From: Helicobacter pylori PMSS1
GTDB taxonomy: Bacteria; Campylobacterota; Campylobacteria; Campylobacterales; Arcobacteraceae
Assembly (NCBI GenBank): GCA_945883785.1
Contig: CAMCYD010000005.1
Coordinates: 1 to 46,181 of the forward strand
Direction of reading: 5' to 3'
DNA: 46,181 nt
Of this stretch, positions 26,921 to 46,001 are shown one piece after another (within the stretch, counting starts at the first letter, position 1; each line of letters opens with the position of its first letter). Below the pieces are notes generated by a model, which saw only the letters and a program-made list of their open reading frames with translations, made no database searches and had not been told where the DNA came from. The position numbers and the translations under genes are program-made.

Positions 26921-26934
26921 CAAAAGTAGCAATA

Positions 26935-27636: not shown

Positions 27637-27638
27637 TA

Positions 27639-28049: not shown

Positions 28050-28051
28050 AA

Positions 28052-30015: not shown

Positions 30016-30086
30016 TATCTATTTTGTTCATTACTGACTATGTTTAGTCACCTATTCGACTATTCTTAGCTGGATTATTTAACCAT

Positions 30087-30536
30087 TTAGCAGTATCTTT
30101 TGCTTATAGCACCAATACATCTACCAAGAACAGAACAAGAACCTTTAAAGCCACCAAATGCGCCACCTCCAGATCGTCTCATATCACTAAAATTAGCAAC
30201 TTCTACCCCATTTTCATAAAGCACACCTTTTACTGTCACAAACTTATTGTGCCCAAGAAAAGCATTTCCAGAAGATACGGCATCAACAATCGATAATTTT
30301 AAATATTTTCCCTCTTTTGGTTCAGTTTCAGTTTTTGTAACAGTAAAGCCTTGTTTTGAAGCTTCTTGTTCAAATAATTGAACTTGTTGCTCAGGTAAGT
30401 TACATTCAGACAAAATTGTATTTTGAATATTTGAAGAATTTTCATATGCAGCCACATTGCTAACATAAATATCCCCACCTGCAAAAACACAACTTGACAA
30501 TCCCACTAAAAGACTTGCTACCATAATACTTTTCAT
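30087..30536 (-). CDS. Small exported protein, C-terminus disrupted by a frameshift
   Basis: As read this encodes 149 residues with a signal peptide (VASLLVGLSSCVFAGG). Cleavage after VFA is most likely, though LSSC could also act as a lipobox. The C-terminal region SDMRRSGGGAFGGFKGSCSVLGRCIGAIS is followed by an abrupt KRYC and stop. Removing one A from the AAAA run there opens a further frame that gives KDTAKWLNNPAKNSRIGD and ends at 30044, which looks like a natural amphipathic end. The sequence therefore has either a recent +1 mutation or an assembly error. The start at 30536 is chosen because GGAG directly abuts the upstream ATG at 30542 but lies six bases from this one. Function unknown. 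Confidence 0.65.
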   Translation of the reverse strand: MKSIMVASLLVGLSSCVFAGGDIYVSNVAAYENSSNIQNTILSECNLPEQQVQLFEQEASKQGFTVTKTETEPKEGKYLKLSIVDAVSSGNAFLGHNKFVTVKGVLYENGVEVANFSDMRRSGGGAFGGFKGSCSVLGRCIGAISKRYC

Positions 30537-30556
30537 TTTCATCTCCTATTTTTTAT

Positions 30557-31162
30557 TTAAAATTTATATTGTAATGCCAAATATGGCATACCTGTTGTTT
30601 GTGTATAACTCTCTGTTGTATAACCATAATTACTAGAAACAGTTTCTTCAACATCCACTAAAGTTCCAGTATATCCAAGTCGTACACCCAATCCATGTAA
30701 AAAATTTGGTTCATACTGAATAACGGCTCCATAGTTCAATCCAACACCCGCATCGTCTACAAAAGTTTGTTGTTTTTGATTCATTTTCAAAGAACTTAAT
30801 CCTAATATTGCCGACACTCTCAACTGAGAATTAAGCATACTGTAGCCAACATTTACATTCAAACTAGTTGATTCTGGAGTGAACTCTACTTGTTTTGTTT
30901 GGCTATTTGAAATATCACCATAATTAGTTTGTGCTAATTCAATTGCTACTACATTATTAAATTGATATCCAGCATAGATGTGCGTACCAGAATCTCCTTC
31001 GTATGTTTTAGTATTATATGTGCTATCATTACTCATTGATGACGAACCAGCTCCTACACCAATATAAAAACCTTTTTTATTTGGGGCTACATCTTCAGTC
31101 TCAAGTGCAAACAAGCTACTCATGACACCAATAATACAACTTCCAATGATTATGTTTTTCAT
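30557..31162 (-). CDS. Outer-membrane beta-barrel protein (OmpA/OmpW-like small barrel)
   Basis: A 201-residue exported protein with a signal peptide ending in LFALE. It has about eight predicted amphipathic strands: GFYIGVGAGSSS, THIYAGYQFNNVVAIELAQTNYG, SLNVNVGYSML, LRVSAILGLSSLKM, GLNYGAVIQY, GLGVRLGYTG and PYLALQYKF. The final Phe is the usual outer-membrane insertion signal. It belongs to the generic small-porin/opacity-like barrel class, and nothing indicates a specific ligand. AAAGGA precedes the ATG. It is in the minus-strand block between the PlsC-like gene and the small exported protein. Confidence 0.78.
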   Translation of the reverse strand: MKNIIIGSCIIGVMSSLFALETEDVAPNKKGFYIGVGAGSSSMSNDSTYNTKTYEGDSGTHIYAGYQFNNVVAIELAQTNYGDISNSQTKQVEFTPESTSLNVNVGYSMLNSQLRVSAILGLSSLKMNQKQQTFVDDAGVGLNYGAVIQYEPNFLHGLGVRLGYTGTLVDVEETVSSNYGYTTESYTQTTGMPYLALQYKF

Positions 31163-31218
31163 TCTTTTTCCTTTAATTAAATTGCTCCTAATCTTACAAA
31201 CTAAATACTTAGGTTCAA

Positions 31219-31902
31219 CTAAAGTGAAATTAAATTTTTAGTTTGAGCTTCATAAATAGCCTTTACTGATTGTTCCATATTTTCAAACCAATCTTTCTGC
31301 GAAGAATCTACCGTGTCTAAATAAATAACTTTCACAACCCCAGGAGTTGATATAAATGTTTTTGTATCCAATCTTTTTCTTGTACCTATCAATACAATAG
31401 GCTGTACTGCAAGGTGTAGTTTTTCAGTAATCAATTTAGCACCAACTTGAAATTTGGCGATTTCATCATTATCTCCTCTGGTTCCTTCTGGAAATATCCC
31501 AATAGGTCTTTTTGCTGATATCTCTTGTTTAGCTCTATGAAGTAGTGTTGTTAAAGAACTTCTTTTTGTTGGATTTATGAGTATCAAATTTGGGAATTTA
31601 AAAATCCATCCAAAGACGGGCACTTTCGCTAACTTTTCATTTGCTACCCATGCTATATCTTTTGGGTGAAGATGGTCAAGTAGTGTGATATCAAACATTG
31701 AATTATGATTTAAGACTATCACATCTGCATCTGGATTTAAGGCTCCTATTTCTTCAATCTTTACCCCAATAAGCTTAACCATAGAATATGCCCAAAATTT
31801 ACGAATAGTAAAAATCTTACTTCTAAATAAATACATGCATACAATTACAACCAGCAATGAAAGAAATGAGTAAATACCCATCAAAAACCCTTTAAAATTC
31901 AC
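31219..31902 (-). CDS. PlsC-like 1-acyl-glycerol-3-phosphate acyltransferase
   Basis: A 227-residue membrane-associated acyltransferase with an N-terminal hydrophobic helix. Block I is VLNHNSMFDITLLD (H-x4-D), block II is the KVPVFGWIFKF region, block III is IGIFPEGTRGDND, and block IV is the VQPIVLIG segment. The GTG start at 31902 overlaps the stop of the MMPL gene (GTGA) and has AAAGGAG upstream, so the frame upstream is not used. PlsC-like genes are regular members of aryl polyene clusters next to MMPL exporters, and this copy probably acylates the anchor of the pigment; a housekeeping role in phospholipid synthesis is less likely given the context. Confidence 0.88.
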   Translation of the reverse strand: MNFKGFLMGIYSFLSLLVVIVCMYLFRSKIFTIRKFWAYSMVKLIGVKIEEIGALNPDADVIVLNHNSMFDITLLDHLHPKDIAWVANEKLAKVPVFGWIFKFPNLILINPTKRSSLTTLLHRAKQEISAKRPIGIFPEGTRGDNDEIAKFQVGAKLITEKLHLAVQPIVLIGTRKRLDTKTFISTPGVVKVIYLDTVDSSQKDWFENMEQSVKAIYEAQTKNLISL

Positions 31903-34046
31903 TTTGACTCCTTTTGAATATTGATATCGTGATATTGAAATAATAATAAAAATAAAATTCCACAAATCCCAATAATAGCTATAGATGCTATCGAAAACAA
32001 TGAGTTTATATCACTAAAAATAAGTACACCAAATCCAGCAAAAGTACTAGTCAATGAATACACTATAGCAAGCATTGCATTATGAGATAAATTCTTTTCA
32101 TTCATATAGATTCCATAATCAACTGCCATCGAAATTATAACAAATAGCATAAATATATGCATAATATTGAGTTGGACAAAAGTACCATAAAAGAATATTA
32201 ACGATAGTGGAAAAATTATATATGAAAAAGTTTGCAAAAATCTTCTTTTAGTGGCAACGAGTATTATAGATATAATAATAAACAGGATGATTGTTCCGAT
32301 AATTACCAATTCATCATAAAATTTTGTCAATGAATTCTTAAATAATTCACCACCTTGTGCATTTTTAGTGAATGGTAAAGAAAGTATTTGAGGTAATGCT
32401 TCATTGCTCACAATAGCAGAACCAATATATTCTGTACCATCAAATACTAAATCAATTCCAAAACTTTGAATCATTTCTACCGTATAGTTTGGAAATGGTG
32501 GATTTAATACTTGTGTATTGTAAGTATTATCAAAATAACCTTTTTTAAATCCAACTTTCTCTGAATTATGTTTTATTTCTTTGTGTAGTGCTTCAAAATC
32601 AAAGTTTTTTATTGCTTGTTGTTTGATTGCGTATTCTTCTCTTGAAAGAAGAGATGCCATTCCAACTGTAGCATTTTTATCAATATTATGAATACTCTTA
32701 GCATTGATAATCAACTCATTTATACTATTTCCAGTGATTAAAATAGTTGTTTTGTTGTTTTGTCCTAAGTTTGATTTGAAGAAATACTCACTTTCTATAA
32801 GTTTTTTATTTTGGTAGTCAAGAGTTTTGATATTAAAATCGAAAGTTGTATAAAATGAAGAATAAATTATCATAAGAAAAGAAATTAAAACAATAATATA
32901 GCCTTTTATATGAAATTTAGTATTAAATCTTTTTACTGCGTATGGTTCAATAAATTTTATCCCAAGATGAGGATAAATAAAAGCAAAATGTATATAAGCG
33001 ATAGTGAGTGATACAGCAGTGAAAAATGAAATTTGCCTAATGAGTGGAAAATCAACAAAAGATATCATTAGAAAAGCTACCACAGTAGTAAGATAGCCAT
33101 AAAAGACCGATTTATTAAAGCCGAGTTTTTTATCATAATGATTGTGCAAGTAATGATGAAACATATAGTCAATCGAAACAGAGGTAATAGCAATACTAAA
33201 AGTTAGTGCAATAATTGATATTTGTGGAAATATATAAAATAAAATAATTTGTGTTGCTATAACTGAAGTGACTAAAGTTATTACGATATTGACAAACAGA
33301 TATATATTTTTGAGAAGAATGATATAAAGTAATCCAAGTAATATTGTAGAAATAAATATTATTTTATTTGCATCATCTTTGGTTGCTTGAGAATTTTCAA
33401 CATGATAATAGATAGGGCTAAATGATTTCACATTATCATACTTAGTTAAAATCTTTTGTATATAATCGTATGTTTGAGTTTTTGAAATAGTTTCTGGTGC
33501 TGAATTTATTGTAAAAATAGCAAGATAACCATAATTATCCAAAGCTAAATAGCCGTCTTTAAATTTTATGCTATTTGATGATGGGGGGTTTGTTTTAAGT
33601 ATATTAAATGGGTCTTCTTTATTAATATCAACATAATAAGATGAATTTATTATCTCTTCATACAAAGTTGACAAAGTGGTACTTACATTTATATCTTTAC
33701 TATTTTTGTATCTGAAATCATTAAGATACAACTTGTAAATTTGTTTAAAATCTTGTAAATTTTGATTATTAAATTGTGTATTAACTGCAACCAATTTGCT
33801 ATTTGAAAGTAATTCATTTTGAATATTTTTTAATTTTTCCAATTCAACTGCTTCAAAACCTTGTACCGCAACTAATAAAATCTTTCCAGTATTGAACTGT
33901 TCCATCAGGGAATAAACTTTTTTGTCTTCTTCCCCAAGAATAGTTGATAAGTTTGTGGAAATATTTTGATAAGGTTGTATTATAAAATAAATAAAAAGTA
34001 GAAAACTAAATATGAAAAAATTTGAAAATTTAATGTATTGTTTCAA
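31899..34046 (-). CDS. MMPL/RND-type exporter
   Basis: A 715-residue membrane protein with two repeats of the RND-like topology. Each repeat has one helix (residue ~10 and ~375), a large periplasmic domain, then five helices. Helix groups are seen at ~228-355 (IIFISTILLGLLYIILLKNIY onward) and ~580-710 (IIGTIILFIIISIILVATKRR onward). Short conserved spots are SVSIDYMFHHYLH and MAVDYGIYMNEKN, the second-half equivalent. It is of the type that moves aryl polyene lipids or their precursors from the inner membrane (ApeM-like). It starts inside the end of the LolA-like gene and ends inside the PlsC-like gene, so the three are co-translated. Confidence 0.86.
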   Translation of the reverse strand: MKQYIKFSNFFIFSFLLFIYFIIQPYQNISTNLSTILGEEDKKVYSLMEQFNTGKILLVAVQGFEAVELEKLKNIQNELLSNSKLVAVNTQFNNQNLQDFKQIYKLYLNDFRYKNSKDINVSTTLSTLYEEIINSSYYVDINKEDPFNILKTNPPSSNSIKFKDGYLALDNYGYLAIFTINSAPETISKTQTYDYIQKILTKYDNVKSFSPIYYHVENSQATKDDANKIIFISTILLGLLYIILLKNIYLFVNIVITLVTSVIATQIILFYIFPQISIIALTFSIAITSVSIDYMFHHYLHNHYDKKLGFNKSVFYGYLTTVVAFLMISFVDFPLIRQISFFTAVSLTIAYIHFAFIYPHLGIKFIEPYAVKRFNTKFHIKGYIIVLISFLMIIYSSFYTTFDFNIKTLDYQNKKLIESEYFFKSNLGQNNKTTILITGNSINELIINAKSIHNIDKNATVGMASLLSREEYAIKQQAIKNFDFEALHKEIKHNSEKVGFKKGYFDNTYNTQVLNPPFPNYTVEMIQSFGIDLVFDGTEYIGSAIVSNEALPQILSLPFTKNAQGGELFKNSLTKFYDELVIIGTIILFIIISIILVATKRRFLQTFSYIIFPLSLIFFYGTFVQLNIMHIFMLFVIISMAVDYGIYMNEKNLSHNAMLAIVYSLTSTFAGFGVLIFSDINSLFSIASIAIIGICGILFLLLFQYHDINIQKESK

Positions 34047-34506
34047 TGGTTATCTTATCACTATTTGACATATTTATCGTAATTGTTTCAATTTGTTTTC
34101 TATTTTTCAAGATTTCAATAGAAGTAATTGCTTTGCTCACCTTTTTTTTTGCTTCTAAAAAAATAGCATTTTGTGATATTTTGACCATAAAGAGCTCATT
34201 TAAGACTGTGTAATTATCTTCTGTTATTGATGTAAGTATTATCTTCATATATTCAAAATGAGGGTATTTTGTATATAAATATTCCTTTATTTTACCATTG
34301 TTTTGTATTGTCATTTTATTATTATCGTAAATGATTGTTTCTTTATTTGGCTTCGTATAAACTAAAGATAAAACATCATTTTTTATCTCTAAAGCACCAT
34401 ACAAAACTCTTGTCGAATCAATTGAATCAATATATCTTGTTTCTTTAAAAGGCATATCAGCAAAGATAAACATAGGAAAAATAAGGATTAATATTAAAAA
34501 TTTCAT
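34030..34506 (-). CDS. LolA-like periplasmic lipid carrier
   Basis: A 158-residue periplasmic protein with a signal peptide (MKFLILILIFPMFIFAD) and a beta-rich body. The body has the half-barrel pattern of LolA-like carriers: FKETRYIDSIDSTRVLYGALEI, then paired strands to IETITINMSNSDKITIETI. LolA-like proteins next to an MMPL exporter are standard in aryl polyene clusters and probably accept the lipid for transfer to the outer membrane. An upstream in-frame ATG at 34530 exists, but the signal peptide fits 34506. A TATAAT at 34518-34513 (minus) ends only about seven bases before this ATG, so the transcript may be leaderless or start further upstream. Confidence 0.75.
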   Translation of the reverse strand: MKFLILILIFPMFIFADMPFKETRYIDSIDSTRVLYGALEIKNDVLSLVYTKPNKETIIYDNNKMTIQNNGKIKEYLYTKYPHFEYMKIILTSITEDNYTVLNELFMVKISQNAIFLEAKKKVSKAITSIEILKNRKQIETITINMSNSDKITIETIH

Positions 34507-34550
34507 TCGGCAATTATAGGAATGTTTCATTTAATTGTAGCTTTTATAAG

Positions 34551-34596: not shown

Positions 34597-34866
34597 ATGA
34601 TTACAAGTAAAGATTTTAAAGAAGTTCTAATAAAGTATCTTAATTTAGAAGATATAACTGCGGATGAAATAGATGATGAGGCAAGATTGTTTGGAGATGA
34701 TGGACTTGGTTTGGATTCTGTTGATTCGATAGAATTAGTTTTGGCAATAGAAAAAGAGTATCAAGTTAAAATAACAGACACAAAACAATACGATACAATA
34801 TTTGCCTCTATTAAAAATCTTTTACACTACATCAATGAAAAAAGAGAGGAAAATAACTCTCTTTAA
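34597..34866 (+). CDS. Acyl carrier protein 1
   Basis: An 89-residue acidic ACP. The phosphopantetheine attachment site is Ser41 in GLGLDSVDSIELVLAIE, with helix III following (TKQYDTIFASIKNLLHYI). It would carry either the aryl starter or the growing polyene. It is the first gene of the right-hand + block and overlaps the ABC ATPase start by one base (TAATG). A second ACP lies at 36890; two ACPs (ApeE and ApeF in E. coli) are a hallmark of aryl polyene systems. A phosphopantetheinyl transferase gene is not in the window. Confidence 0.93.
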   Translation: MITSKDFKEVLIKYLNLEDITADEIDDEARLFGDDGLGLDSVDSIELVLAIEKEYQVKITDTKQYDTIFASIKNLLHYINEKREENNSL

Positions 34867-35732
34867 TGACTATTTCTATCAATAATTTATCAAAAAAATA
34901 CAAAGATATAACTATTTTGGATAAGCTTGATTTGACAATCAAACAAGGTTCAATTTTTGGACTTCTTGGTCCAAATGGTGCTGGGAAAACAACATTAATT
35001 TCAATTTTGAATTACTTAACAAAAAAAGAAACTGGCAAAGTTAAGATTTTTGATTATGATTTGGATTTTCATGAGAAAGATATCAAATCTATCTCAAGCT
35101 TAGTGCCTCAATCTTATGCTTTTTATCCAACTTTAACTGCTTATGAAAATCTTGAATTTTTTGGTGCATTGTATCAATTAAGTGGAAATGATTTGACAAA
35201 TAGAATTGATTATTGTTTGCAGATGACTGCTTTAGAAAATTTTAGAAATAAAAAATCCGAAACATTTTCTGGCGGATTAAAAAGAAGACTAAACATAGCA
35301 ATTGGGCTATTGAATAGTCCAAAGATTTTATATCTAGATGAACCAACGGTTGGAATTGACCCACAATCGAGAAACTACATTTTAAATGTTATAAAAAATA
35401 TAAATGAAACAGAGGGTACAACCATAATATACACCTCTCATTATATGGAAGAAGTAGAATACCTTTGTGATGATATTGCAATTATTGATCAAGGTAAAAT
35501 TGTACTGCACGAAACAAAAGAAAATCTCAATAAAAGAGCAAGTGTTGCAAAAATAAATTTTACCAATGATACATTTCAAAATGCAAGTTTTAGAGATAAT
35601 TATTCCGAATTAGTAGAGATATTTTGCAATATTAAAAATGACAATTTAACTATAGCAAATATAGAACTACCGAGTAATAATTTGGAAAATCTTTTTTTAT
35701 CCATAACAAAAAAAGAGTTGAGAGACTCATGA
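34866..35732 (+). CDS. ABC transporter ATP-binding protein
   Basis: A 288-residue ABC ATPase with Walker A GPNGAGKTT, Q-loop SLVPQSYAFYPTL, signature FSGGLKRRLNIA, Walker B ILYLDEPTVGID and the H-loop in TIIYTSHYMEEVEYL. The type is that of drug/pigment ABC-2 exporters. The ATG overlaps the ACP stop, and the C-terminus overlaps the permease gene by four bases, giving one translational unit. ABC-2 exporters are typical of flexirubin clusters of Bacteroidota, less so of proteobacterial aryl polyene clusters. Confidence 0.95.
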   Translation: MTISINNLSKKYKDITILDKLDLTIKQGSIFGLLGPNGAGKTTLISILNYLTKKETGKVKIFDYDLDFHEKDIKSISSLVPQSYAFYPTLTAYENLEFFGALYQLSGNDLTNRIDYCLQMTALENFRNKKSETFSGGLKRRLNIAIGLLNSPKILYLDEPTVGIDPQSRNYILNVIKNINETEGTTIIYTSHYMEEVEYLCDDIAIIDQGKIVLHETKENLNKRASVAKINFTNDTFQNASFRDNYSELVEIFCNIKNDNLTIANIELPSNNLENLFLSITKKELRDS

Positions 35733-36889
35733 TTTATTACATATTAAAAAAAGAATTTTTGTTAATTTTTAGAAATTTACATGCTATTGTTGTTCTTTTT
35801 GTTATGCCAACAGCATTTATAATCATTATGTCTTTAGCCCTTCAAAATACTTATTCTAATAAATTTGATACAAAAATGAATATCGCTGTGCTGAGTGAAA
35901 CCATTTCACTCAAAACAGATGCATTTATAGAGAAACTCAATAAAAATGATTTTTTTATCTTTACTATAGTAAAAAATAAATTACCATCAAATACATATTT
36001 GTACAAAAATGGTTATGATTTTGTAGTATTTTTGCCTAAAGATTTCATACAGAATATTGATAAAGATAGCAACAACAGTATTTCAATTTTTTCTAAATCT
36101 GATATGGCTCATGAGCATATAATGCTTTTAAAACAATTTATATATTCTAAAATAGCCGAGACTACTATTGAAAATTTTGCTACGATTTTAAATGTTGATA
36201 TAAACGATTCTAAAAACCTTGATGACACCATTACTCATACATATATTTTACAAGATAAGAAAGCTACACAAGTCACTTCTGTTCAACATAGTGTTCCCTC
36301 TTGGCTTATTTTTTCTATGTTTTTTATTTTAATTCCAATTTCCAATGCTTTTATAAATGAGAAAAATTTTGGAACTCTTGATAAAATAAGAAGTATTGAT
36401 GTTTCTTTATCCACAATAATCTTTGGTAAATTTGCTCCATATTTTTTTATGAACCAAATACAAGTATTTTTTATGATTTTAGTTGGGATGTATATTATTC
36501 CATTATTAAACGGCGAAGCTCTTGTTATAAATGGAAGCATTTCGTTGTTGATTCTTGTTTCCTGTGTCGTATCTATTTCAGCAATTGCTTTTGCTTTAAC
36601 TATAGCAACCATTAGTAATAGTAGTGAAATGGCGACAATTTTAGGTGGAACTTCAAATATTATTTTGGCAGCTCTTGGTGGAATTATGGTTCCTAAAATA
36701 GTAATGCCTCAGTTTATGCAAGATATTTCAGAGCTTTCACCTATGTCTTGGGCATTAGATTGTTTTTTAGAAGTGATTGTCAACGGTGGTTCTTTCAGTG
36801 ATATTCAAAATAACTTATTAAAATTAGTTTTATTTGCACTTTGCTTTTTTTGTATTGCTTATTTGATGTTAAAATATAGGAGAAATTAA
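35729..36889 (+). CDS. ABC-2 type transporter permease
   Basis: A 386-residue membrane protein with one N-terminal helix (residues ~20-38), a ~150-residue exported domain, and five to six C-terminal helices (from SWLIFSMFFILIPISNAFIN). This is the YhhJ/YbhR layout. The conserved region INEKNFGTLDKIRSIDVS matches the E-x-G-T element after the second helix, and LGGIMVPKIVMPQFMQDISELSPMSWALD is the usual motif near the end. It overlaps the ATPase start-stop by ATGA and is followed at once by the second ACP. Substrate is inferred to be the pigment or a part of it. Confidence 0.92.
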   Translation: MIYYILKKEFLLIFRNLHAIVVLFVMPTAFIIIMSLALQNTYSNKFDTKMNIAVLSETISLKTDAFIEKLNKNDFFIFTIVKNKLPSNTYLYKNGYDFVVFLPKDFIQNIDKDSNNSISIFSKSDMAHEHIMLLKQFIYSKIAETTIENFATILNVDINDSKNLDDTITHTYILQDKKATQVTSVQHSVPSWLIFSMFFILIPISNAFINEKNFGTLDKIRSIDVSLSTIIFGKFAPYFFMNQIQVFFMILVGMYIIPLLNGEALVINGSISLLILVSCVVSISAIAFALTIATISNSSEMATILGGTSNIILAALGGIMVPKIVMPQFMQDISELSPMSWALDCFLEVIVNGGSFSDIQNNLLKLVLFALCFFCIAYLMLKYRRN

Positions 36890-37159
36890 ATGATTGAACA
36901 AAACAATCTTAACTTGAATCGTGAACTGAAACAATTAATTATTGATACATGTGGCAAAATTGACTACACACCTGATGATATAGATGATGAGGAAGCACTG
37001 TTTAGTAATGAGAGCAAATTGGAATTAGATTCAATGGATGCTTTACAAATATCTATGGCAATAAATGAAAAATATAAAATCAAAATTACAGATAGTAAAA
37101 AATTACGAAAAATTATGACAAATATAAATAGTTTAGCTCACTATATTGAGGGACAATGA
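36890..37159 (+). CDS. Acyl carrier protein 2
   Basis: An 89-residue second ACP with its attachment site at Ser48 in LELDSMDALQISMAIN. It is more diverged than ACP 1 around the site (Met-Asp after the Ser instead of Val-Asp), and it has a longer N-terminus (residues 1-12, EQNNLNLNRELKQLI). It starts immediately after the permease stop and overlaps the ketosynthase start by four bases, so it is likely the dedicated partner of that ketosynthase. Confidence 0.92.
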   Translation: MIEQNNLNLNRELKQLIIDTCGKIDYTPDDIDDEEALFSNESKLELDSMDALQISMAINEKYKIKITDSKKLRKIMTNINSLAHYIEGQ

Positions 37160-38316
37160 AAAGTTATATCAGAGGATATTCTCTGAACTGTAGCTTAGGA
37201 AATGACGACTTAACAATCATTAAAAAGATTAAAACAATTAATCAAGACAATTATGAAAGATACCTCACTGAAGCATTTAAGGAAAAAACATACTATAAAA
37301 TTTATGATACTTTTAGTTCTCAAAAAGATAGATTTGAAAAGATTGTAAAAGATGTTATTGAGGATTGTGTAAAAAAAACAAATTTAACAAAAGAGGAACA
37401 AAAAGATTTAGCTATTTTTATAGGATCTACTTCTATGGGTGTTTCTATAAATGAAGAGATAAATGCATTATATAAAATAGGTGAAAGTAATTTTGAATTT
37501 AACCATCTTGAATATGGTTCCATAGGAACATATGTTGAAGATATATTAGAGTCAAACCATAAGGCTATATTATTTTCAACCGCTTGTACATCTAGTGCAA
37601 ATGCTTTTTGTTATGCTTCTAAATTAATAGAAAAAAAGCAAATAAATAGGGCAATTGTTATTGGAATTGAGCTTTTCAATCACACAACTTTTGATGGTTT
37701 TTCATCTTTAATGCTTCTTTCTGAACAAAATATCTATCATCCATTTGATACAAGAAGTGATGGAATCATTTTAGGAGAAGGTTGCTCAGCTATTATTTTA
37801 GATAGCACACCATCCAGTGAAAATGATTTTTATTATGTAGCTTCAAAAAATGTATGTGATACCTATAGTGAAACTTCAAGCAATCCAAACGGCATAGCAA
37901 ATTTTGAGTCAATGAATCAAGCATTAAATAATGCTAAGCTTACATTAAAAGATATAGATTTTATAAAAGCTCATGCAGCTGGTAGTCAAAATAGCAACAG
38001 TTCAGAAGCCAATGCTCTATCTTTACTCTTTAAAGAACAACAACATAAAGTTCCAATTACTATTATCAAACCGTTTATTGGACATACTTTGGGTGCATGC
38101 GGAACAAATGAAATTGTATTTATTTTAATGTGTTTACACAATAACTTTATCCCGCCGACTTTAGGTTGTGAGGATAAAATAGATGAGTTAGAATCTTGCC
38201 CAATACCTAAGTCCATTCTTATTCAAAACAAACGAATAAGTGTTTTGTTTAATTTCGTAGCTTTTGGTGGAAATAATACTTCCATAATTTTAAGTAACAA
38301 AAAAGATCTGAAATAA
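37156..38316 (+). CDS. Beta-ketoacyl-ACP synthase (KS A), second-His motif altered
   Basis: A 386-residue KAS I/II-type condensing enzyme. The nucleophile is Cys144 in FSTACTSSANAF, the first His is His273 and the second His310 (PFIGHTLGACG). The usual HGTGT around the first His reads KAHAAGSQNSNSSEA here: the His is kept but the following loop is unusual. All three catalytic residues remain, so it should be active. It is directly followed (one-base overlap) by a short chain-length-factor-like protein, and the pair resembles a KS/CLF heterodimer (ApeO/ApeC type). It presumably extends the polyene. Confidence 0.9.
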   Translation: MKSYIRGYSLNCSLGNDDLTIIKKIKTINQDNYERYLTEAFKEKTYYKIYDTFSSQKDRFEKIVKDVIEDCVKKTNLTKEEQKDLAIFIGSTSMGVSINEEINALYKIGESNFEFNHLEYGSIGTYVEDILESNHKAILFSTACTSSANAFCYASKLIEKKQINRAIVIGIELFNHTTFDGFSSLMLLSEQNIYHPFDTRSDGIILGEGCSAIILDSTPSSENDFYYVASKNVCDTYSETSSNPNGIANFESMNQALNNAKLTLKDIDFIKAHAAGSQNSNSSEANALSLLFKEQQHKVPITIIKPFIGHTLGACGTNEIVFILMCLHNNFIPPTLGCEDKIDELESCPIPKSILIQNKRISVLFNFVAFGGNNTSIILSNKKDLK

Positions 38317-39056
38317 TGTACATTCACAATTTTTTTACTTTACAAAATGACGAGCATTTATCTACACTTGAATATAAAAAAATGCTTTCAACTCTATGTT
38401 CTATAAACACCAGACGATTCAATAGATTTAATACTCTTGCTGTTTATGGTGCTATGAAGTGCCTTGACAAGAGTATCCATTCTGAAAATATTGGTGTATA
38501 TATGGCTACAGAATGTGGACCAGTTGAAAGTCTTCGAAATGTATTACAACAAATTAATGATAAAAGTGGAATTTTAATGCCTTTTGATTTTTTGGGACTT
38601 AATACAAGTGCAAGTTTTTATGTTGCACAAGCCCTTCAATCAAAAGAAAAACATATGGTTCTAAGCGCGCATCAATTATCTTTTGAAAAAGCTATTCAAT
38701 TAGCTTATTATGACCTTCAACATAATGAATTAGAAGAAGTTTTGATAGGAAAAGTTGATATCGCTTTGGATTTCATAGAAAATTATGAAAAATACATTAC
38801 GGAAGAAAATGCCAAATATCAAGAACAAAGTTGCTGGATATATGCTAATAATAATCCGAAAAATGCAATATGCAAAATAGATAGAATTGAAGAGTACTCA
38901 AATAGAGAAGATGTTTTGGCTAAATACAATACGGAAAATGTACATTTTTCCTTTTCTGAAGTATTACAACAATGTTTATTAGGTAAAATGGATGTTATTT
39001 ATATAGCTCAAGATAAAAAAATGAGAAGTATTGTTATACATATTTCTAAAGTTTGA
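38316..39056 (+). CDS. Truncated ketosynthase-like protein, chain length factor-like (pair A)
   Basis: A 246-residue protein with only the N-terminal part of a ketosynthase fold. A recognisable element is IGVYMATECGPVESLRNVLQ, then the region where a KS has its Cys, here FLGLNTSASFYVAQALQ with no Cys, then EEVLIGKVDIAL. Such Ketoacyl-synt_2-like proteins are annotated as chain length factors in aryl polyene clusters and form heterodimers with the full KS next to them. It overlaps KS A by one base and is followed after about 20 bases by the second KS. The assignment by fold is moderate because the sequence is strongly diverged. Confidence 0.7.
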   Translation: MYIHNFFTLQNDEHLSTLEYKKMLSTLCSINTRRFNRFNTLAVYGAMKCLDKSIHSENIGVYMATECGPVESLRNVLQQINDKSGILMPFDFLGLNTSASFYVAQALQSKEKHMVLSAHQLSFEKAIQLAYYDLQHNELEEVLIGKVDIALDFIENYEKYITEENAKYQEQSCWIYANNNPKNAICKIDRIEEYSNREDVLAKYNTENVHFSFSEVLQQCLLGKMDVIYIAQDKKMRSIVIHISKV

Positions 39057-39077: not shown

Positions 39078-40187
39078 ATGGTAAATAAAAAAAATCGTGT
39101 CTATATCACAGCAACATCTTCAATTACTTGTGCAGGAAAAAATAATGAAGAATTATTTGAAAATATTTGTGCTGGGAAAAGTGGCATTACACAAAGTGAT
39201 GAATATGCTAGTGTCAGAACAGTATCGATAGGAATAATAAAAAGCGAATATACTTTTTATGAAAATCTAATACTTCAATGTCAAAATATTTTAGATAATT
39301 CCAATTTAGAAAATTTTGAAAATACCCTTTTGATAATTGGTTCTTCAGTAGGGGGAATGAAAACAACAGAAGATATTTTTTTTACCACAAATAACTATAA
39401 CGATATAGACCCAAAACAACACAATATTGATGCCATTGCAAATACATTAAGACAAGCTTTTGATTTTTACGATGATATTTCATTTTCTACTGCATGCACT
39501 TCAAGTGCCAATGCTATTGGTTATGGATATGAGGTTTTAAGTAAAGGTATATACAAAAATGTTTTAGTCATTGGTGTTGATTCATTATGTCAGACAACAG
39601 TACAAGGTTTTGTTTCACTTGGCGTATTGTCATCAAATCCATGCAAACCATTTGATAAAGAACGAGATGGTATGAATGTAGCCGAGGGAATAGCTTGTTT
39701 ATTGCTAGAAACTATACCATCAAAAAATTCAATAGAAATATGTGGAGTTGGTTACAGTAGTGATGCACATCATATGACACAACCGCATGCTGATGGTTCA
39801 AGAAATGCAATGCTCAATTGTTTACAATCAGCTAATATTCAAGAAAATCAAATAGATTATATCAATGCTCATGGAACAGGAACCATGGCCAATGATGAAG
39901 CAGAAGGAAATTCTATATCTTCACTTTTTCTACACAAACCATTCGTAAGTTCTACAAAATCGATCACTGGGCATACATTAGGAGCGGCTGGAGCATTGGA
40001 GGCTATTATATCTTCAATGGTGATTTTAAAACAAACTATCCCTAAAAATTCTTTTTTAGAGATAGCTCAAAATGATGGCTTAAATCTTTCGAGAGAAACA
40101 ATTAATACAAAAGTAAGATATACACTCAGTAACTCTTTTGCTTTTGGTGGTAATAATTGTAGTTTATTGTTTGGGGAGATTGTATGA
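39078..40187 (+). CDS. Beta-ketoacyl-ACP synthase (KS B)
   Basis: A 369-residue condensing enzyme with a full canonical active site: Cys140 in FSTACTSSANA, His265 in INAHGTGTMANDEAEG and His299 in KSITGHTLGAAGALEA. The conserved NSFAFGGNNCSLLF closes the protein. It is more canonical than KS A and is paired with a second short CLF-like protein. AGAAAGG precedes the ATG. It may act as the starter-loading or an alternative extending KS (ApeR-like). Which product each KS makes cannot be read from the sequence. Confidence 0.92.
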   Translation: MVNKKNRVYITATSSITCAGKNNEELFENICAGKSGITQSDEYASVRTVSIGIIKSEYTFYENLILQCQNILDNSNLENFENTLLIIGSSVGGMKTTEDIFFTTNNYNDIDPKQHNIDAIANTLRQAFDFYDDISFSTACTSSANAIGYGYEVLSKGIYKNVLVIGVDSLCQTTVQGFVSLGVLSSNPCKPFDKERDGMNVAEGIACLLLETIPSKNSIEICGVGYSSDAHHMTQPHADGSRNAMLNCLQSANIQENQIDYINAHGTGTMANDEAEGNSISSLFLHKPFVSSTKSITGHTLGAAGALEAIISSMVILKQTIPKNSFLEIAQNDGLNLSRETINTKVRYTLSNSFAFGGNNCSLLFGEIV

Positions 40188-40828
40188 AAATCAATTTAGA
40201 AATATTAAAAAGTGCTTATTTATTTGATGAAACAAGTATTGACACAACGCAGATTAAAGATTTGGTACCAAATATGATGATGAGACGAAGACTCACAAAA
40301 GCCTCAAAAATAACACTAAAGTTACTTTCTTCATTGGATGATTATACAGAAAATAGAATTATTTATGGAAGTGCTTTTGGAGAACTTGAAATTACTGCAA
40401 ATATTATCAATGCTATAAAAGATAAGCAGTCGCTCAGTCCAACAGATTTTCAAAATTCAGTTTACAATACAGCTATTTCATATTTGTCTATTTTAATGAA
40501 AAACAAAAGTGAAATGTTGACTATTTCTAGTGGAGATAAAACCTCTTTGAATGTTTTAAAAGCTGGGGCAATAAAATCAATAGATGGTGATACTTTAGTA
40601 TTAATTTGTACAGAAACGATTAATATTCCAAATATAGAACAAGTAAATAAGTGTGTGAAGTATTTGGAAAGTGGGGTTGTCTTAGTTGTCAAAACAACAT
40701 CAAAAGAAGCAAATATCAGTATACAAAAAAGTGAATCCAAAGGGATTCCAAATTCTATGAGTGAGATGTTGTATGTAGCTCAAAAAGCAACTGAAGTCCA
40801 AAACCCAATAGTAGAGATACTTTTATGA
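40184..40828 (+). CDS. Ketoacyl-synt_2 protein, chain length factor-like (pair B)
   Basis: A 214-residue protein of the short ketosynthase-like class. The family pattern is seen in NMMMRRRLTKASKITLKLL, then IIYGSAFGELEITANIINAI, the SLSPTDFQNSVYNTAISYLSI element, and the MLTISSGDKTSLNVLKAGAI strand-turn. There is no KS nucleophile Cys. It overlaps KS B by four bases and the dehydratase by four, so it is translated with both. It is the second CLF-like protein of the cluster; the first is at 38316. Confidence 0.82.
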   Translation: MKINLEILKSAYLFDETSIDTTQIKDLVPNMMMRRRLTKASKITLKLLSSLDDYTENRIIYGSAFGELEITANIINAIKDKQSLSPTDFQNSVYNTAISYLSILMKNKSEMLTISSGDKTSLNVLKAGAIKSIDGDTLVLICTETINIPNIEQVNKCVKYLESGVVLVVKTTSKEANISIQKSESKGIPNSMSEMLYVAQKATEVQNPIVEILL

Positions 40829-41193
40829 ATTTACCTCACTTACCTCCTGTACGATTTGCACAAGAAGTTATAAGCCGCACGGAAGAAGAAGTGCAAGTGC
40901 TATGTGTATTTCCAAATGTTCCCACTCTTCCTATGTTGGCTGAAGCAGCTGCACAATCAACTTCTGCTTTTTCAAATAGTGTTACCCCACAGATTGGCTT
41001 TTTGATTTCACTCAAAGAAGTTGTTTTATTTGGAGATGTTTTATTTTTAGAATATATTATTATTGTTAAAAACACTGCTACAATAGGTACATTTGAAGAA
41101 TTTTATTTTGAAGTATTTGATAAAAAAACAGTACCAATTTTAAATAAAAAATTGGCAAGTGGCAAATTAGTTATTTCTATTCAGTCATCATAA
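40825..41193 (+). CDS. Hotdog-fold dehydratase-like protein (ApeP-like)
   Basis: A 122-residue hotdog protein. The N-terminal NLPHLPPVRFAQEVI is like the LPHxPPxxx start of FabZ and ApeP proteins, and FPNVPTLPMLAEAAAQSTSAF takes the place of the FabZ helix, with the usual GHFP His absent. This suggests the non-identical half of a heterodimeric dehydratase together with the protein encoded at 22537, which has the GHFP element. It lies between the CLF-like gene and the hydrolase gene, one base before the next start. Confidence 0.74.
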   Translation: MNLPHLPPVRFAQEVISRTEEEVQVLCVFPNVPTLPMLAEAAAQSTSAFSNSVTPQIGFLISLKEVVLFGDVLFLEYIIIVKNTATIGTFEEFYFEVFDKKTVPILNKKLASGKLVISIQSS

Positions 41194-41194: not shown

Positions 41195-42517
41195 ATGAGA
41201 TTTATATTTTTTTCACTAATCCTTTTACTTTTTTCAAATACATCATATGCAAAAACTTTTATGCTAGAAAATGAGCCAATTTTTGGTGCATCTGTTTTTA
41301 TACAAACACTAGGAAATCCAGCTAATGAAACTATTATTTTAGTTCATGGTTTGGGGGACGAAGCATCTACAATTTGGAAAGGCACTATAGATGCTTTGAG
41401 TGAAAAATACTATATAGTTACATTTGATTTACCAGGGTTTGGTAAATCATCTAAAGAAAATAAACTTTATTCTCCAACAAATTATGCAAAATTGATTCGC
41501 TATATTGCTAACAAATATGTTAAAAAACCATTTCATTTAATTGGTCATTCAATGGGTGGAGCTATTGCTCTTAAATATACTAGCCTGTATGCCAAAGATG
41601 TATCAAGCTTAGTTTTAGTGGATGCTGCAGGAATTTTGCATAAAAATGCATATAGTAATTTTTTAGTGAATAATAAAATAGATGATTTATTTGATGGGCG
41701 ATTTGAAAAGTTAAAAACAGTACATTTTTCAAACTTTATAGACAAAATAGTGAATAAATTTGATAATTCTAAAATTATAAATTTAGATACCGTTTTATCC
41801 ACGGAACTCCTTAGGGGAACAATTTTAAGAGGTAATCCAAATATTATTGCAGCTGTTGCACTTGTTCAAGAAAATTTTAATGGCATTCCTCAGGATATCA
41901 AAACCAAAACAATGCTTATCTGGGGTGAAGAGGATGATATTGCACCTCTTAAAACGGGTTATGTTCTCAATAAATTAATTCCAAATTCAGTTTTAAAAGT
42001 TATTCCACATTCAAAACATATTCCAATGATAACAGATAAAGAAAAGTTTTTAGAACAACTTTTTGAACATTTTAGCAATCAAAATATCATTGCAAAAATA
42101 AACAAGAAAAATATAATTGAACCATATGATATCAATGTTACAAATGAACAGATCCAAATATATACGGGTAATATAAAAAAAATAACAATTAAAAATTCTA
42201 AAAATATTATCATCAAGGATGCCATTATTGAAGAATTACTGATTACTGATTCTGATGTTGAAATTATAAACAGTACCTTTCTTCACTCAAATAATAATAA
42301 TGTCATATTTGCTAAAAATTCAAATCTTTCTATAGTTGCTAGTGATTTATTTGGTGAGATAGAAGCGGATGGTTCCATACTAAATCTTGCTGGTGTTTTT
42401 ATGAGTGCTCAAAATCCGATTCATTCAACAAACAATTCAACGGTTATTTTTTCTTTATGCACTATCAATGATAAGCTAATACACGGAAACGAAACAATAA
42501 TCAAAAAAGGAAATTAA
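41195..42517 (+). CDS. Exported alpha/beta hydrolase with beta-helix-like C-terminal domain
   Basis: A 440-residue protein with a signal peptide (MRFIFFSLILLLFSNTSYA). It has an alpha/beta-hydrolase core: HGLGDEAS oxyanion region, nucleophile Ser119 in LIGHSMGGAIAL, an acid in WGEEDDIAP (Asp247 or 248) and His275 in PHSKHIPMI. From about residue 300 to the end a different domain follows with short regular beta-repeats (IKKITIKNSKNIIIKDAIIEELLITDS-type steps, each ending in N, D or S), the pattern of a right-handed parallel beta-helix. It could be an esterase or acyltransferase that acts on the pigment in the periplasm. This fusion is not one I recognise from known aryl polyene clusters. Confidence 0.75.
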   Translation: MRFIFFSLILLLFSNTSYAKTFMLENEPIFGASVFIQTLGNPANETIILVHGLGDEASTIWKGTIDALSEKYYIVTFDLPGFGKSSKENKLYSPTNYAKLIRYIANKYVKKPFHLIGHSMGGAIALKYTSLYAKDVSSLVLVDAAGILHKNAYSNFLVNNKIDDLFDGRFEKLKTVHFSNFIDKIVNKFDNSKIINLDTVLSTELLRGTILRGNPNIIAAVALVQENFNGIPQDIKTKTMLIWGEEDDIAPLKTGYVLNKLIPNSVLKVIPHSKHIPMITDKEKFLEQLFEHFSNQNIIAKINKKNIIEPYDINVTNEQIQIYTGNIKKITIKNSKNIIIKDAIIEELLITDSDVEIINSTFLHSNNNNVIFAKNSNLSIVASDLFGEIEADGSILNLAGVFMSAQNPIHSTNNSTVIFSLCTINDKLIHGNETIIKKGN

Positions 42518-42519: not shown

Positions 42520-43473
42520 GTGAAAAAAATCTTAATTGTGCACTACTCACAGACTGGTCAGTTGACAAATATAATAAAAAGCATGATACGACCACTTGAG
42601 AATAATCCAAAAATTAAGCTTGTATTTAAGGAAGTTAAGCCTATAAGCCCATATCCTTTTCCTTGGAATTTTATGAAGTTTATGGATACATTTCCAGAAT
42701 CAGTACACTTGGATACTTGCCCTATCGAAGAATTTGAAAATGATGAGAATGACTATAATTTGGTAATCTTAGCCTATCAAATATGGTTTTTGTCTCCATC
42801 AATTCCGATAACTTCATTTTTAAAATCTGCTTATGCAAAAGAAAAGCTGAAAAATAAACCTGCGATCACCGTTATTGGTTGTAGGAATATGTGGATTATG
42901 GCTCAAGAAAAAATGAAATCTTTGTTAAAAAATATTGAAGCAAAATTAATAGACAACATAGTACTTATCGACCAAGGAAATTCTTTAGCAACTTTTATCA
43001 CAACTCCTAGATGGATGATGACTGGAAAAAAAGATGCACTTTGGGGAATATTTCCAAAAGCAGGAGTAAGTGATATTGAAATTACTGAAGTTTCAAGATT
43101 TGGATATGCTATTCAAGAAGCTTTAGAACAAGATAGGGAAAAGGAACTTAAACCTTTATGTTATGGACTTGGTGCCGTTAATGTGAATGAAAAATTGATT
43201 AGAAGTGAACAAATTGGGACAAAAAGTTTTCATATTTGGGGAATGATGATTAGAAAATTCTCAAAACAAGGAAGCTTAAAACGAAAATTATTTATAATCT
43301 TTTATACAATCTTTTTAGTTTTTATCATTTTAACCATTGTGCCAATTAATATGATAATTCAAACTTTATATCGCAGAATAAGAGCAAGTGAAGTATTCAA
43401 ACAAAAAGAATTTTATGAACTACCCTCTGGTAGCAGTATAGAAAGAATGAAGGAATTTAAAAATGATGAATAG
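42520..43473 (+). CDS. darA: DarA-like dialkylresorcinol aromatase/condensing enzyme
   Basis: A 317-residue protein with a flavodoxin-like start (KKILIVHYSQTGQLTNIIKSM) and a conserved middle (PYPFPWNFMKFMDTFPESVHL, LAYQIWFLSPSIPITSFL, AITVIGCRNMWIMAQEKMK). One C-terminal membrane helix lies at residues ~257-279. This is the DarA family, which works with DarB to form the aromatic ring of dialkylresorcinols and cyclohexanediones. It starts with GTG two bases after the preceding stop. The following gene is DarB-like and overlaps by 11 bases. The pairing makes the assignment strong although it is not the usual housekeeping flavodoxin. Confidence 0.88.
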   Translation: MKKILIVHYSQTGQLTNIIKSMIRPLENNPKIKLVFKEVKPISPYPFPWNFMKFMDTFPESVHLDTCPIEEFENDENDYNLVILAYQIWFLSPSIPITSFLKSAYAKEKLKNKPAITVIGCRNMWIMAQEKMKSLLKNIEAKLIDNIVLIDQGNSLATFITTPRWMMTGKKDALWGIFPKAGVSDIEITEVSRFGYAIQEALEQDREKELKPLCYGLGAVNVNEKLIRSEQIGTKSFHIWGMMIRKFSKQGSLKRKLFIIFYTIFLVFIILTIVPINMIIQTLYRRIRASEVFKQKEFYELPSGSSIERMKEFKNDE

Positions 43474-44605
43474 TGTTTACATTAATAATATTAAAACTTT
43501 TATGCCAAATAACCCAGTTAACAATACTGATATAGAAGAATATTTGGGGTACATAGGTGGAAAAAAATCAAAAGCAAAAAGCATAGTTTTACGAAGCAAT
43601 GGAATTAAGCAGCGATACTATGTTTTGGAAAAAGGAACAGAAAAGGCACTCTATTCAAATGCGCAAATCACAGCAAATGCTATACAAAAACTTGAAAATC
43701 AAACTTTTCATCTTAATGATTTAGAGTGTTTATCGTGTGGAACAACTACACCAGACCAGCTAATGCCAAATCACACTTTAATGGTACAAGGTGAATTAGG
43801 TTTAAAGGAAATTGAAACTTTAAGTGCTTCTGGAATTTGTTTAAGTGGAATTAATGCACTAAAATATCTTTATTATGGTATTAAAAGTGGGGAATTAAAA
43901 AATGGAGTAGCTACTGGTTCTGAAGTTGTATCTCCAATATTGAGTGCAAAAAACTTTAAAGAAGAATCAAAACAATTAGAACTTTTAGAACAAAATCCAT
44001 CTATTGCCTTTGAAAAGGATTTTTTAAGATGGATGCTTTCTGATGGTGCTGGTGCTATGTTGCTTCAAAATAAACCTAATGAAATGAGTCTATCACTAAA
44101 AATTGAATGGATTGAATTACTTTCTTATGCTGGCGAGATGCCAACATGTATGTATAGTGGTGGTGAAATAGTAAATGAAGAATTTATTGGATGGAGAAAT
44201 TATCAGCAAGATGAAATTATGTCAAAATCATTGCTTAGTATCAGACAAAATGTAAAACTACTCAATGAAAATATTGTTGAATATACAGTTATAAAACCTT
44301 TTTTGAAAATTAAAGAAAAACAAAATTTAAAACAAGAAGAGATCAATTATTTTCTACCTCATTATTCATCTCATTTTTTTCGAGATAAATTATATGAAGG
44401 TCTTGTAAAAGCAGGTTTTGAAATACCTTATGATAAATGGTTTACAAATCTTACGACTTGTGGAAATACTGGTTCGGCTTCGATTTATATTATGTTAGAA
44501 GAACTATTTCATTCAAAAAAACTCATAAAAGGCGAAAAAGTTCTTTGTTATATTCCTGAGAGTGGAAGATTTTCGACTGCTTTTATGCTTTTGGAAGTCG
44601 TCTAA
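43463..44605 (+). CDS. darB: DarB-like beta-ketoacyl synthase III
   Basis: A 380-residue KAS III-type enzyme that condenses two acyl units to the precursor of the dialkylresorcinol ring. The catalytic set is Cys126 (SASGICLSGI), His300 (YFLPHYSSHF) and Asn335 (TCGNTGSASIY). The N-terminal region VYINNIKTFMPNNPVNNTDIEEYLG, followed by the AKSIVLRSNGIKQRYY segment, is typical of DarB proteins of flexirubin clusters. AAGGAA precedes the first of two adjacent ATGs. It overlaps the end of darA, and its stop overlaps the next start (TAATG). Confidence 0.92.
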   Translation: MMNSVYINNIKTFMPNNPVNNTDIEEYLGYIGGKKSKAKSIVLRSNGIKQRYYVLEKGTEKALYSNAQITANAIQKLENQTFHLNDLECLSCGTTTPDQLMPNHTLMVQGELGLKEIETLSASGICLSGINALKYLYYGIKSGELKNGVATGSEVVSPILSAKNFKEESKQLELLEQNPSIAFEKDFLRWMLSDGAGAMLLQNKPNEMSLSLKIEWIELLSYAGEMPTCMYSGGEIVNEEFIGWRNYQQDEIMSKSLLSIRQNVKLLNENIVEYTVIKPFLKIKEKQNLKQEEINYFLPHYSSHFFRDKLYEGLVKAGFEIPYDKWFTNLTTCGNTGSASIYIMLEELFHSKKLIKGEKVLCYIPESGRFSTAFMLLEVV

Positions 44606-45000
44606 TGAATCAGACTATTGAAGTTCCTCATGAAGTAAATTCTACCTTAGATGGTGTACAAAAAGTAATGTATGCAAAAAATACACAAGGTGGATTTGAA
44701 AGATTTAATTATGGAAGTGCAGTAGAAGAGTTTGCAACAAAAACTGCTATAGAAGAATACAATCTTCTTGAAGAAGAGTGTTTATCTGATATTAGAAAAG
44801 GTATAGTTTCTCCAATTAAATATTTTATGTATAAAAATAGAATGGATTTGGAGACTCTTGCAAGCGCTATTGGAAGATTTCAATTTTTAGTTAAAAGAGA
44901 TTTTTCTTCCAAAGTATTTAGTAAAATGGATGATAAACTGCTACTAAAATATGCCGAAGTTTTCAATATAACACCAGATGAATTAAGGAATTTTCAATGA
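44605..45000 (+). CDS. Small protein with helix-turn-helix-like C-terminus, function unknown
   Basis: A 131-residue protein. The N-terminal half has no recognisable motif (EVPHEVNSTLDGVQKVMYA, GGFERFNYGSAVEEFA). The C-terminal half KYFMYKNRMDLETLASAIGRFQFLVKRDFSSKVFSKMDDKLL, ending KYAEVFNITPDELRNF, has the spacing of a Cro/CI-type helix-turn-helix. It could be a cluster regulator or an accessory protein of the DarB/BtrH-like enzymes. It overlaps darB by one base and the BtrH-like gene by four bases, so it is translated with both. The family is not recognised. Confidence 0.66.
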   Translation: MNQTIEVPHEVNSTLDGVQKVMYAKNTQGGFERFNYGSAVEEFATKTAIEEYNLLEEECLSDIRKGIVSPIKYFMYKNRMDLETLASAIGRFQFLVKRDFSSKVFSKMDDKLLLKYAEVFNITPDELRNFQ

Positions 45001-46001
45001 CTTCAGATACACCGTTTGTCCACTCTCAATTTGCCCATTGCGAAAGTGGCGTGGTTTCGACTTTACTTAGTTCTTATGGATTAAAGATGAGTGAGCCCAT
45101 GGCATTTGGAACAACAAGTACTTTGAATTTTGTGTATTTGCCAATTGTGAAGATAAACGGTTTACCTCTGATTGCTTATCGTAGTTTGCCAAAAAATATT
45201 ATCAATACTATTTCAAAAGTTTTCAAAATAGATATGGCTAAAAAAACTTTTAGTAATCAAGAAGATGCAAATAACGAATTAAAAAGACTTGTTGAAAAAG
45301 AACATAAATTTGTTGGTTTGCAAACATCAGTTTTTTATCTTCCATATTTTCCAAAGGATATGAGATTTCATTTTAATGCTCATAATTTACTTGTGTATGG
45401 TACTAAAGATGGTCAATATCTTATCTCTGATCCAGTATTTGAGCATCCTGTTGTTTGCAATGAAAAAGATTTAAATAAAGCAAGATTTGCGAAAGGAGCT
45501 TTTGCACCAAATGGGTTTTTATATTATCCAAAAATAATTCCTGCAAATATTGATTTTTCTGATGTAATCAAAAAAGCTATTATTAAAAATGCCAAATCAA
45601 TGTTGACTCCTTTTCCTTTTGCTGGAGTGAAGGGGATGAGAAGATTGGCAAACAGAATTAAATCTCTTGACAACAAGCCAGAAAACCAAAGATACAATAA
45701 AAATTTTCTTACAAATATTGTACGAATGCAAGAAGAAATCGGAACAGGTGGAGGTGGATTTAGATTCTTGTATGCTGCCTTTTTAGAAGAAGCTAAAAAT
45801 TATGATTTGAATAATGAAATATTAGAAGAAGCCTCCATCTTAATAATTCAATCTGGTAATGCATTGAGAAAATTTGCTTTGTACTGTGTGGAAGGTAGCA
45901 AAAAGATAGATACATTAGACACAAATAAAATAGCTTCAAAGTTAACGGAGGCTTCAAACTATGAAGAAAAAGCATTTAGGCTGTTGAAAATGATAAAATA
46001 A
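44997..46001 (+). CDS. BtrH-like acyltransferase (butirosin BtrH N-terminal / DUF4872 type)
   Basis: A 334-residue protein with a papain/C39-like Cys-His-Asp set: FAHCESGV (Cys15), HFNAHNLLVYG (His129) and LISDPVFEHP (Asp145), followed by a helical C-terminal domain (DUF4872-like). BtrH of butirosin biosynthesis transfers an acyl chain from its carrier protein to an aminoglycoside. By that precedent, this protein could move the polyene acyl group from ACP to a hydroxyl of the dialkylresorcinol, making the flexirubin-type ester. It is the last gene of the right-hand block. The transfer reaction is an inference; the family match is good. Confidence 0.82.
   Translation: MTSDTPFVHSQFAHCESGVVSTLLSSYGLKMSEPMAFGTTSTLNFVYLPIVKINGLPLIAYRSLPKNIINTISKVFKIDMAKKTFSNQEDANNELKRLVEKEHKFVGLQTSVFYLPYFPKDMRFHFNAHNLLVYGTKDGQYLISDPVFEHPVVCNEKDLNKARFAKGAFAPNGFLYYPKIIPANIDFSDVIKKAIIKNAKSMLTPFPFAGVKGMRRLANRIKSLDNKPENQRYNKNFLTNIVRMQEEIGTGGGGFRFLYAAFLEEAKNYDLNNEILEEASILIIQSGNALRKFALYCVEGSKKIDTLDTNKIASKLTEASNYEEKAFRLLKMIK

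Follow-up and report, generated by a model that had tools for sequence, protein, structure and literature searches.

Flexirubin-type pigments, which are defined by an ester between a polyene and a dialkylresorcinol (DAR), have long been used in the classification of Bacteroidota. Polyene-DAR clusters were described in two 2014 papers, and both arcuflavin and flexirubin are polyene-DAR esters (PMC3992019, PMC3949708). Chitinophaga DarA and DarB alone make the resorcinol in E. coli, and FlxW, a ligase-like enzyme, was proposed for the joining step in the same organism, whose ester has m/z 634 (PMC3992019). Azoarcus BH72, which carries darA-K, was shown to make a polyene-DAR hybrid, and its darE (azo0290) is labelled 'BtrH-like peptidase' in Table 1 of that study (PMC3949708). 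An earlier note on the DNA analysed here had taken the joining step to be without a clearly assigned enzyme. This holds insofar as the literature searched, which covers few subscription journals, yielded no experiment on DarH and no test of the enzyme that makes the polyene-DAR ester. However, FlxW had been proposed (PMC3992019), and NCBIfam already holds a DarH family (NF053550, 'BtrH-related acyltransferase DarH') whose name implies acyl transfer; thus, the step is already partly assigned, and the note's idea of an ester-forming BtrH-like protein is near to what the curators imply.

Several relatives act, or are proposed to act, on carrier-bound acyl groups. BtrH, from the butirosin pathway, moves an acyl chain off a carrier protein, with an aminoglycoside as the acceptor (PMC10318531). 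In the celesticetin pathway, the catalytic Cys of CcbD receives an acyl group from a carrier protein and hands it on to the amine of an amino sugar, which yields an amide (PMC12945683). CtaG, from the closthioamide pathway, was proposed to be a peptidyl transferase on carrier-bound substrates, with hydroxybenzoate moved between carrier proteins (PMC6772006). What is new here is a systematic distribution profile of DarH, its fold match, the module to which it belongs and two kinds of exception.

The dar operon and its pigment cluster

The window (the whole stretch analysed, 46,181 nucleotides) is an entire contig that ends 180 bp past darH. The earlier note had placed this gene at the end of the darA-darB operon; it is indeed the last gene, with darG, which the note lacked, lying in between. 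The overlaps in this tight darA-darB-darG-darH operon (darA/darB 11 bp, darB/darG 1 bp, darG/darH 4 bp) suggest translational coupling. The gene recognised next after darH is on the opposite strand in most relatives from Campylobacterota. The features are listed in the table.

Table. Features of the pigment cluster in the window.
Feature	Position	Strand	Description	Basis
Polyene start and tailoring genes	22823-29221	+	GT2, LpxL-like acyltransferase, ketoreductase, dehydratase-like gene	Pfam, NCBIfam
Aromatic ammonia-lyase	24430-25950	+	One of the polyene start and tailoring genes	Pfam, NCBIfam
AMP-ligase	28052-29221	+	One of the polyene start and tailoring genes	Pfam, NCBIfam
Outer-membrane/export genes	29218-34530	-	MipA-like, 151-aa protein, OmpA-like, PlsC-type acyltransferase, 715-aa exporter-like protein, LolA-like	Pfam, NCBIfam
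ACP1	34597-34866	+	Carrier protein also in plain polyene clusters; possible alternative donor	Pfam PP-binding
ABC exporter of dar module	34866-36889	+	ATPase 34866-35732, ABC-2 permease 35729-36889	Pfam
ACP2	36890-37159	+	Second ACP, dar module (Azoarcus darC)	Pfam PP-binding, co-distribution
KS1	37156-38316	+	Dar-module ketosynthase (Azoarcus darJ)	Pfam, FabF alignment, profile search
u246	38316-39056	+	KS-like KS1 partner (Azoarcus darK)	Weak Ketoacyl-synt_2 match, co-distribution
KS2, KS-like protein, 122-aa protein	39078-41193	+	Polyene ketosynthase, KS-like chain-length protein (40184-40828), 122-aa protein	Pfam
Alpha/beta hydrolase	41195-42517	+	Rival joining enzyme	Pfam, distribution
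darA	42520-43473	+	Partner of darB, flavodoxin-like start	Synteny with darB
darB	43463-44605	+	Ketosynthase for the cyclohexanedione/resorcinol ring	NCBIfam NF005293, 595 bits (cut-off 450); function from PMC3992019
darG	44605-45000	+	131 aa, between darB and darH	NCBIfam NF053536 DarG_fam, 118.7 bits (cut-off 70)
darH	44997-46001	+	Putative BtrH_N + DUF4872 acyltransferase, Cys15/His129/Asp145	Pfam, NCBIfam, conservation, fold

The darH ORF starts with ATG and encodes 334 aa. Two Pfam profiles are covered end to end: BtrH_N at residues 14-146 (E 4e-42, 144 bits, cut-off 29.7) and DUF4872 at residues 157-330 (E 1.3e-48, 165.5 bits, cut-off 28). The protein also matches NF053550 over its full length (452.1 bits, cut-off 300) and, like the members of that family, adjoins DarG and DarB; we saw no family-level difference, and the window member comes from Campylobacterota. 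Its closest relatives are likewise from Campylobacterota, for example Arcobacter-like and Sulfurospirillum-like genomes. The window DarB is a member of the StlD/DarB family. DarA matched no Pfam or NCBIfam family of its own at the thresholds used, and a homologue stands beside darB in other dar loci. DarG was recognised adjoining DarH in every case tested. The C-terminal half of DarG is predicted to adopt an Xre/Cro-like helical fold; Foldseek matched the model weakly to proteins of the Xre type (best E 6e-3). A DarG-DarH fusion was considered for some Gammaproteobacteria with long open frames and rejected, since DarG lies in a different frame.

The polyene genes of the cluster are FAS-II-like and include two KS, KS-like proteins, a KR, two ACPs, the AMP-ligase and the ammonia-lyase. 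Alignment to FabF indicated that the Cys-His-His of KS1 is intact. The Azoarcus darA-K set corresponds in content (DarAB, ACP, KS, a hypothetical protein, an ABC pair and a BtrH-like protein), and the counterpart of the ABC exporter is darF/darI (PMC3949708). Gene letters differ, the BtrH-like gene being darE in PMC3949708 and DarH at NCBI; the two are likened by annotation and gene set. The polyene starter in Azoarcus is 3-hydroxybenzoate, whereas the window ammonia-lyase suggests coumarate, as in flexirubin. This lyase scores well below the FlxA cut-off; its best score is against tyrosine ammonia-lyases of the BagA/FevW type, whose cut-off it likewise misses. Against the NCBIfam equivalogs of classical flexirubin clusters, all window scores are below cut-off (FlxA ammonia-lyase 348.8/700, flexirubin DarG 95.7/170, resorcinol_DarB 503.4/550); the cluster is flexirubin-like, below the NCBIfam flexirubin assignment.

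Active site and predicted fold of DarH

We aligned 45 DarH sequences with 35-75% identity to the window protein, drawn from Campylobacterota, Gammaproteobacteria and Bacteroidales. Cys15, His129 and Asp145, the set named in the earlier note, are at the places it gave and are invariant in all 45. The triad is also kept in two distant relatives at 21-23% identity. Distant DarH relatives with this triad in L085 (G462) and L086 (G337) score 126 and 103 bits, below the cut-off; they occur without DarB or the polyene marker, and one lies near an outer-membrane efflux/HlyD pair.

The AlphaFold2 model (pLDDT 85.4, pTM 0.86) is papain-like in its N-terminal domain and entirely helical in its C-terminal one, which agrees, as do the two Pfam domains, with the helical BtrH/DUF4872-type C-terminus that the note had described. 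In the model, Cys15 opens the first helix, His129 is at the start of a strand and Asp145 follows the next strand. Sequence searches of solved structures with DarH turned up nothing beyond designed helical proteins and AziU3, the latter a weak match, so a fold search was needed for its relatives. Foldseek against the PDB ranked AziU3 (E 4.8e-10), CtaG (E ~2e-8) and CcbD (E 7e-8) above C39-type peptidase domains. VIA-align gave Z scores of 22.9 for AziU3, 22.4 for CtaG and 21.1 for CcbD over about 290-306 residues, and ~15 for the peptidase domains over 130-150 residues.

CtaG (PDB 9quz and variants C11A, H128A, D144N) resembles DarH in whole-length fold at 11% identity; both have a Cys, a His and an Asp, with a common His-Asp spacing of 16. 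CcbD (PDB 7yn1, 9dkr, 9dks), whose entries include a C19S mutant bound to its carrier protein, is also alike in whole-length fold at ~12% identity, although its third catalytic residue is Glu and that of DarH is Asp. BtrH shares the two Pfam domains with DarH by name. Judging by conservation, by where the residues lie in the model and by their spacing, the DarH triad appears equivalent to that of CtaG and CcbD.

A peptidase would be a further reading of the papain/C39-like N-terminal domain, in line with the Azoarcus darE label (PMC3949708). The C39 peptidases ComA and PCAT1 share with DarH a papain-like domain of 130-150 residues; however, they lack the DUF4872-like helical domain, and DarH lacks a transporter fusion. 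The better whole-length fit to two-domain CtaG and CcbD argues against this reading, as does the cluster, in which no peptide substrate gene was recognised, and we regard it as very improbable. That DarH is a BtrH-type carrier-protein acyltransferase is well supported, at the level of sequence and model, by its domains, the invariant triad and a fold that matches CtaG and CcbD along the full length. A set of conserved basic residues (K161, R163, K166, R243, R256, R291, K302) could form a docking site for an acidic ACP.

Distribution of DarH with DarB and polyene genes

We surveyed 681 genomes (298 Campylobacterota, 274 Gammaproteobacteria, 109 Bacteroidota); each sample includes one DarH-bearing genome picked as its centre, and the counts are not adjusted for kinship. 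In Campylobacterota, DarH was over its cut-off in 14 genomes and DarB in the same 14; the two genes adjoin in 13 and are on separate contigs in the other (G232). A homologue of the window polyene KS-like protein (E < 1e-39) was found in 22 Campylobacterota genomes, namely these 14 and eight with neither gene, so that DarH was present in 14/14 polyene-bearing genomes with DarB versus 0/8 without it. The polyene marker PF13723 was found in 65 Gammaproteobacteria, 16 of them with DarB; DarH was present in 13/16 with DarB versus 0/49 without. Pooled, the two groups gave 27/30 versus 0/57. The earlier note had held that family members in many plain polyene clusters without darAB would speak against its idea; none was found in these 57 genomes. 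Eight Bacteroidota had DarB, all with DarH, and one more (G324) had DarH. PF13723 was present in 26 of 27 further genomes that had been found by DarH itself. Fisher tests of co-occurrence gave 3e-6, 3e-11 and 2e-11, values that ignore kinship and the DarH-bearing centres and serve as a guide only. DarH and DarB sequence distances correlated with r 0.914 across 36 sequences, and those of DarA and DarB with 0.915. DarH thus occurs almost only where the two halves of a flexirubin-like pigment are both encoded.

We compared the window with the eight DarB-less Campylobacterota polyene clusters (L064-L071). They lack DarA, DarB, DarG, DarH, the ABC exporter, ACP2, KS1 and u246, which is the darA-K set of Azoarcus (PMC3949708 Table 1). 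All eight keep ACP1, KS2, the KS-like protein, the 122-aa protein, the AMP-ligase, the 715-aa exporter-like protein, LolA, the ketoreductase and the dehydratase-like gene, and six keep the alpha/beta hydrolase. Because they persist without DarB, the AMP-ligase, the LpxL-like protein and the alpha/beta hydrolase are expected to serve the polyene half or membrane attachment, and we rejected them as prime joining enzymes. The related possibility that a ligase-like enzyme (FlxW) or an LpxL-like, PlsC-type or alpha/beta-hydrolase protein joins the halves, with DarH in a supporting role, draws on the published FlxW proposal (PMC3992019) and on the presence of genes of these types in the window. With most of these genes retained in all or most plain polyene clusters and FlxW itself not located in the window, we consider it improbable.

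Ketosynthase-fold enzymes can form C-O bonds, as nonactin NonJ and NonK do. The ester could accordingly be made by the KS1/u246 pair with ACP2, leaving DarH to act elsewhere, for example as an editing thioesterase. KS1 retains its Cys-His-His, and the pair is missing together with DarH from plain polyene clusters. In a KS1 profile search, most DarH-positive Gammaproteobacteria tested scored at least 360 bits, three DarB-positive, DarH-negative ones at most 214 bits and plain polyene genomes ~190-250; two DarH-positive genomes, G455 and G576, were exceptions in the lower range. No high-scoring match was found in three Bacteroidota with DarB and DarH (at most 235 bits versus at least 360), yet DarH is in 8/8 DarB-bearing members of this phylum, which is that of the classical flexirubin producers. 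Moreover, the acyltransferase fold belongs to DarH, and an ester-forming KS1/u246 pair is hardly probable.

Two kinds of exception were found. Three Gammaproteobacteria (G428, G522, G545) carry polyene genes as well as DarAB, yet a search at E 1e-20 found no DarH in them. Their DarA-DarB (L057, L059, L060) stand alone, away from the polyene genes, and no DarG/DarH, ACP2, KS1 or ABC exporter was found around them; in G522, the neighbours resemble housekeeping genes. These genomes may produce free (dialkyl)resorcinol, or another enzyme may join the halves. Conversely, DarAB is missing from five Bacteroidales MAGs (L024-L028) that carry flexirubin-type polyene genes together with DarG, DarH and the ABC exporter. 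Their best DarB matches were 105-115 bits in four, versus 565-593 in DarB-positive genomes in the same search, and the fifth had no match at E 1e-60. In 4/5, a 776-aa protein that combines an LpxL-like acyltransferase with a B12-radical-SAM domain (TIGR04072, 'rSAM_ladder_B12', 398 bits, cut-off 360) in one fusion occupies the position of DarAB; the L025 contig starts inside this protein. Two of the five have a DarG-DarH tandem, and two acceptors or two donors are possible. The tandems, DarG-DarH-DarG-DarH, span 10001-12479 in L024 and 1015-3490 in L025, and both DarH copies have the full Cys-His-Asp. The Bacteroidales supercluster (L024-L028; L105-L111) also contains a DarB-like KASIII, two enoyl-CoA hydratases, a 3-hydroxyacyl-CoA dehydrogenase and a second radical SAM protein. 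These DarAB-less clusters possibly make a different polyene conjugate.

Hence the acceptor of DarH may vary, and the pattern for which the earlier note had suggested a search, family members only in clusters with both polyene and Dar genes, stood in the pooled counts but not in these five MAGs. Both kinds of exception indicated that DarH is less tightly bound to DarAB than to the polyene genes, the exporter and DarG. The five MAGs, together with the proposed acyl shift between carrier proteins by CtaG (PMC6772006), would also fit a DarH that moves the polyene to another or an unfixed acceptor, such as a carrier or an exporter-linked lipid partner, while something else makes the polyene-DAR ester. 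The complete absence of DarH from the 57 sampled DarB-less polyene-bearing Campylobacterota and Gammaproteobacteria argues against this, and we consider it unlikely.

Proposed role of DarH and its implications

We propose that DarH is a carrier-protein-dependent acyltransferase that joins the polyene to the DarAB-made resorcinol as an ester, and put the probability of this reading at about 0.6. What we observed directly comprises the domains, the conserved triad, the modelled fold, the operon and the joint inheritance of DarH with DarAB and the rest of the module. A carrier protein, most likely ACP2 and possibly ACP1, would present the finished aryl-polyene acyl chain on its phosphopantetheine arm, and Cys15, activated by His129 and Asp145, would take over this chain as a thioester; ACP2 is the natural guess, as it is absent where DarH is absent. 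A phenol hydroxyl of the 2,5-dialkylresorcinol would then attack acyl-Cys15 and free a flexirubin/arcuflavin-type ester, the phenol O-acylation being assumed by analogy with the known pigments. The co-inherited ABC exporter and lipoprotein-carrier genes may take the ester towards the outer membrane. DarH should be dispensable for the resorcinol half, since DarA and DarB suffice in E. coli (PMC3992019).

Besides the two kinds of exception, two points count against this role. Those relatives for which both a structure and a reaction have been described acylate amines and give amides. In addition, most loci from Proteobacteria and Campylobacterota that hold DarH also have KS1/u246, and co-occurrence alone cannot single out DarH there. 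Taken together, the sequence and model evidence makes DarH a well-supported candidate, and the best one, for the polyene-resorcinol joining enzyme. More tentatively, DarH could be the ester-forming branch of an amide-making papain-fold family and a general polyene capper with a swappable acceptor, mostly dialkylresorcinol and another partner in the B12-radical-SAM Bacteroidales clusters; we hold this to be possible but rather doubtful.

Flexirubin-like polyene plus dialkylresorcinol clusters were present in 14/298 Campylobacterota and polyene clusters without resorcinol genes in eight more; a literature search on Arcobacter and aryl polyenes found nothing relevant.

The comparison narrows the choice of joining enzyme to a single small, conserved module, of which DarH is the member with the acyltransferase fold, and shows the same dar module in Campylobacterota. 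If the proposed role is true, ester formation would be an addition to a family in which the described members form amides; if the acceptor is swappable, DarH would mark undescribed polyene conjugates.
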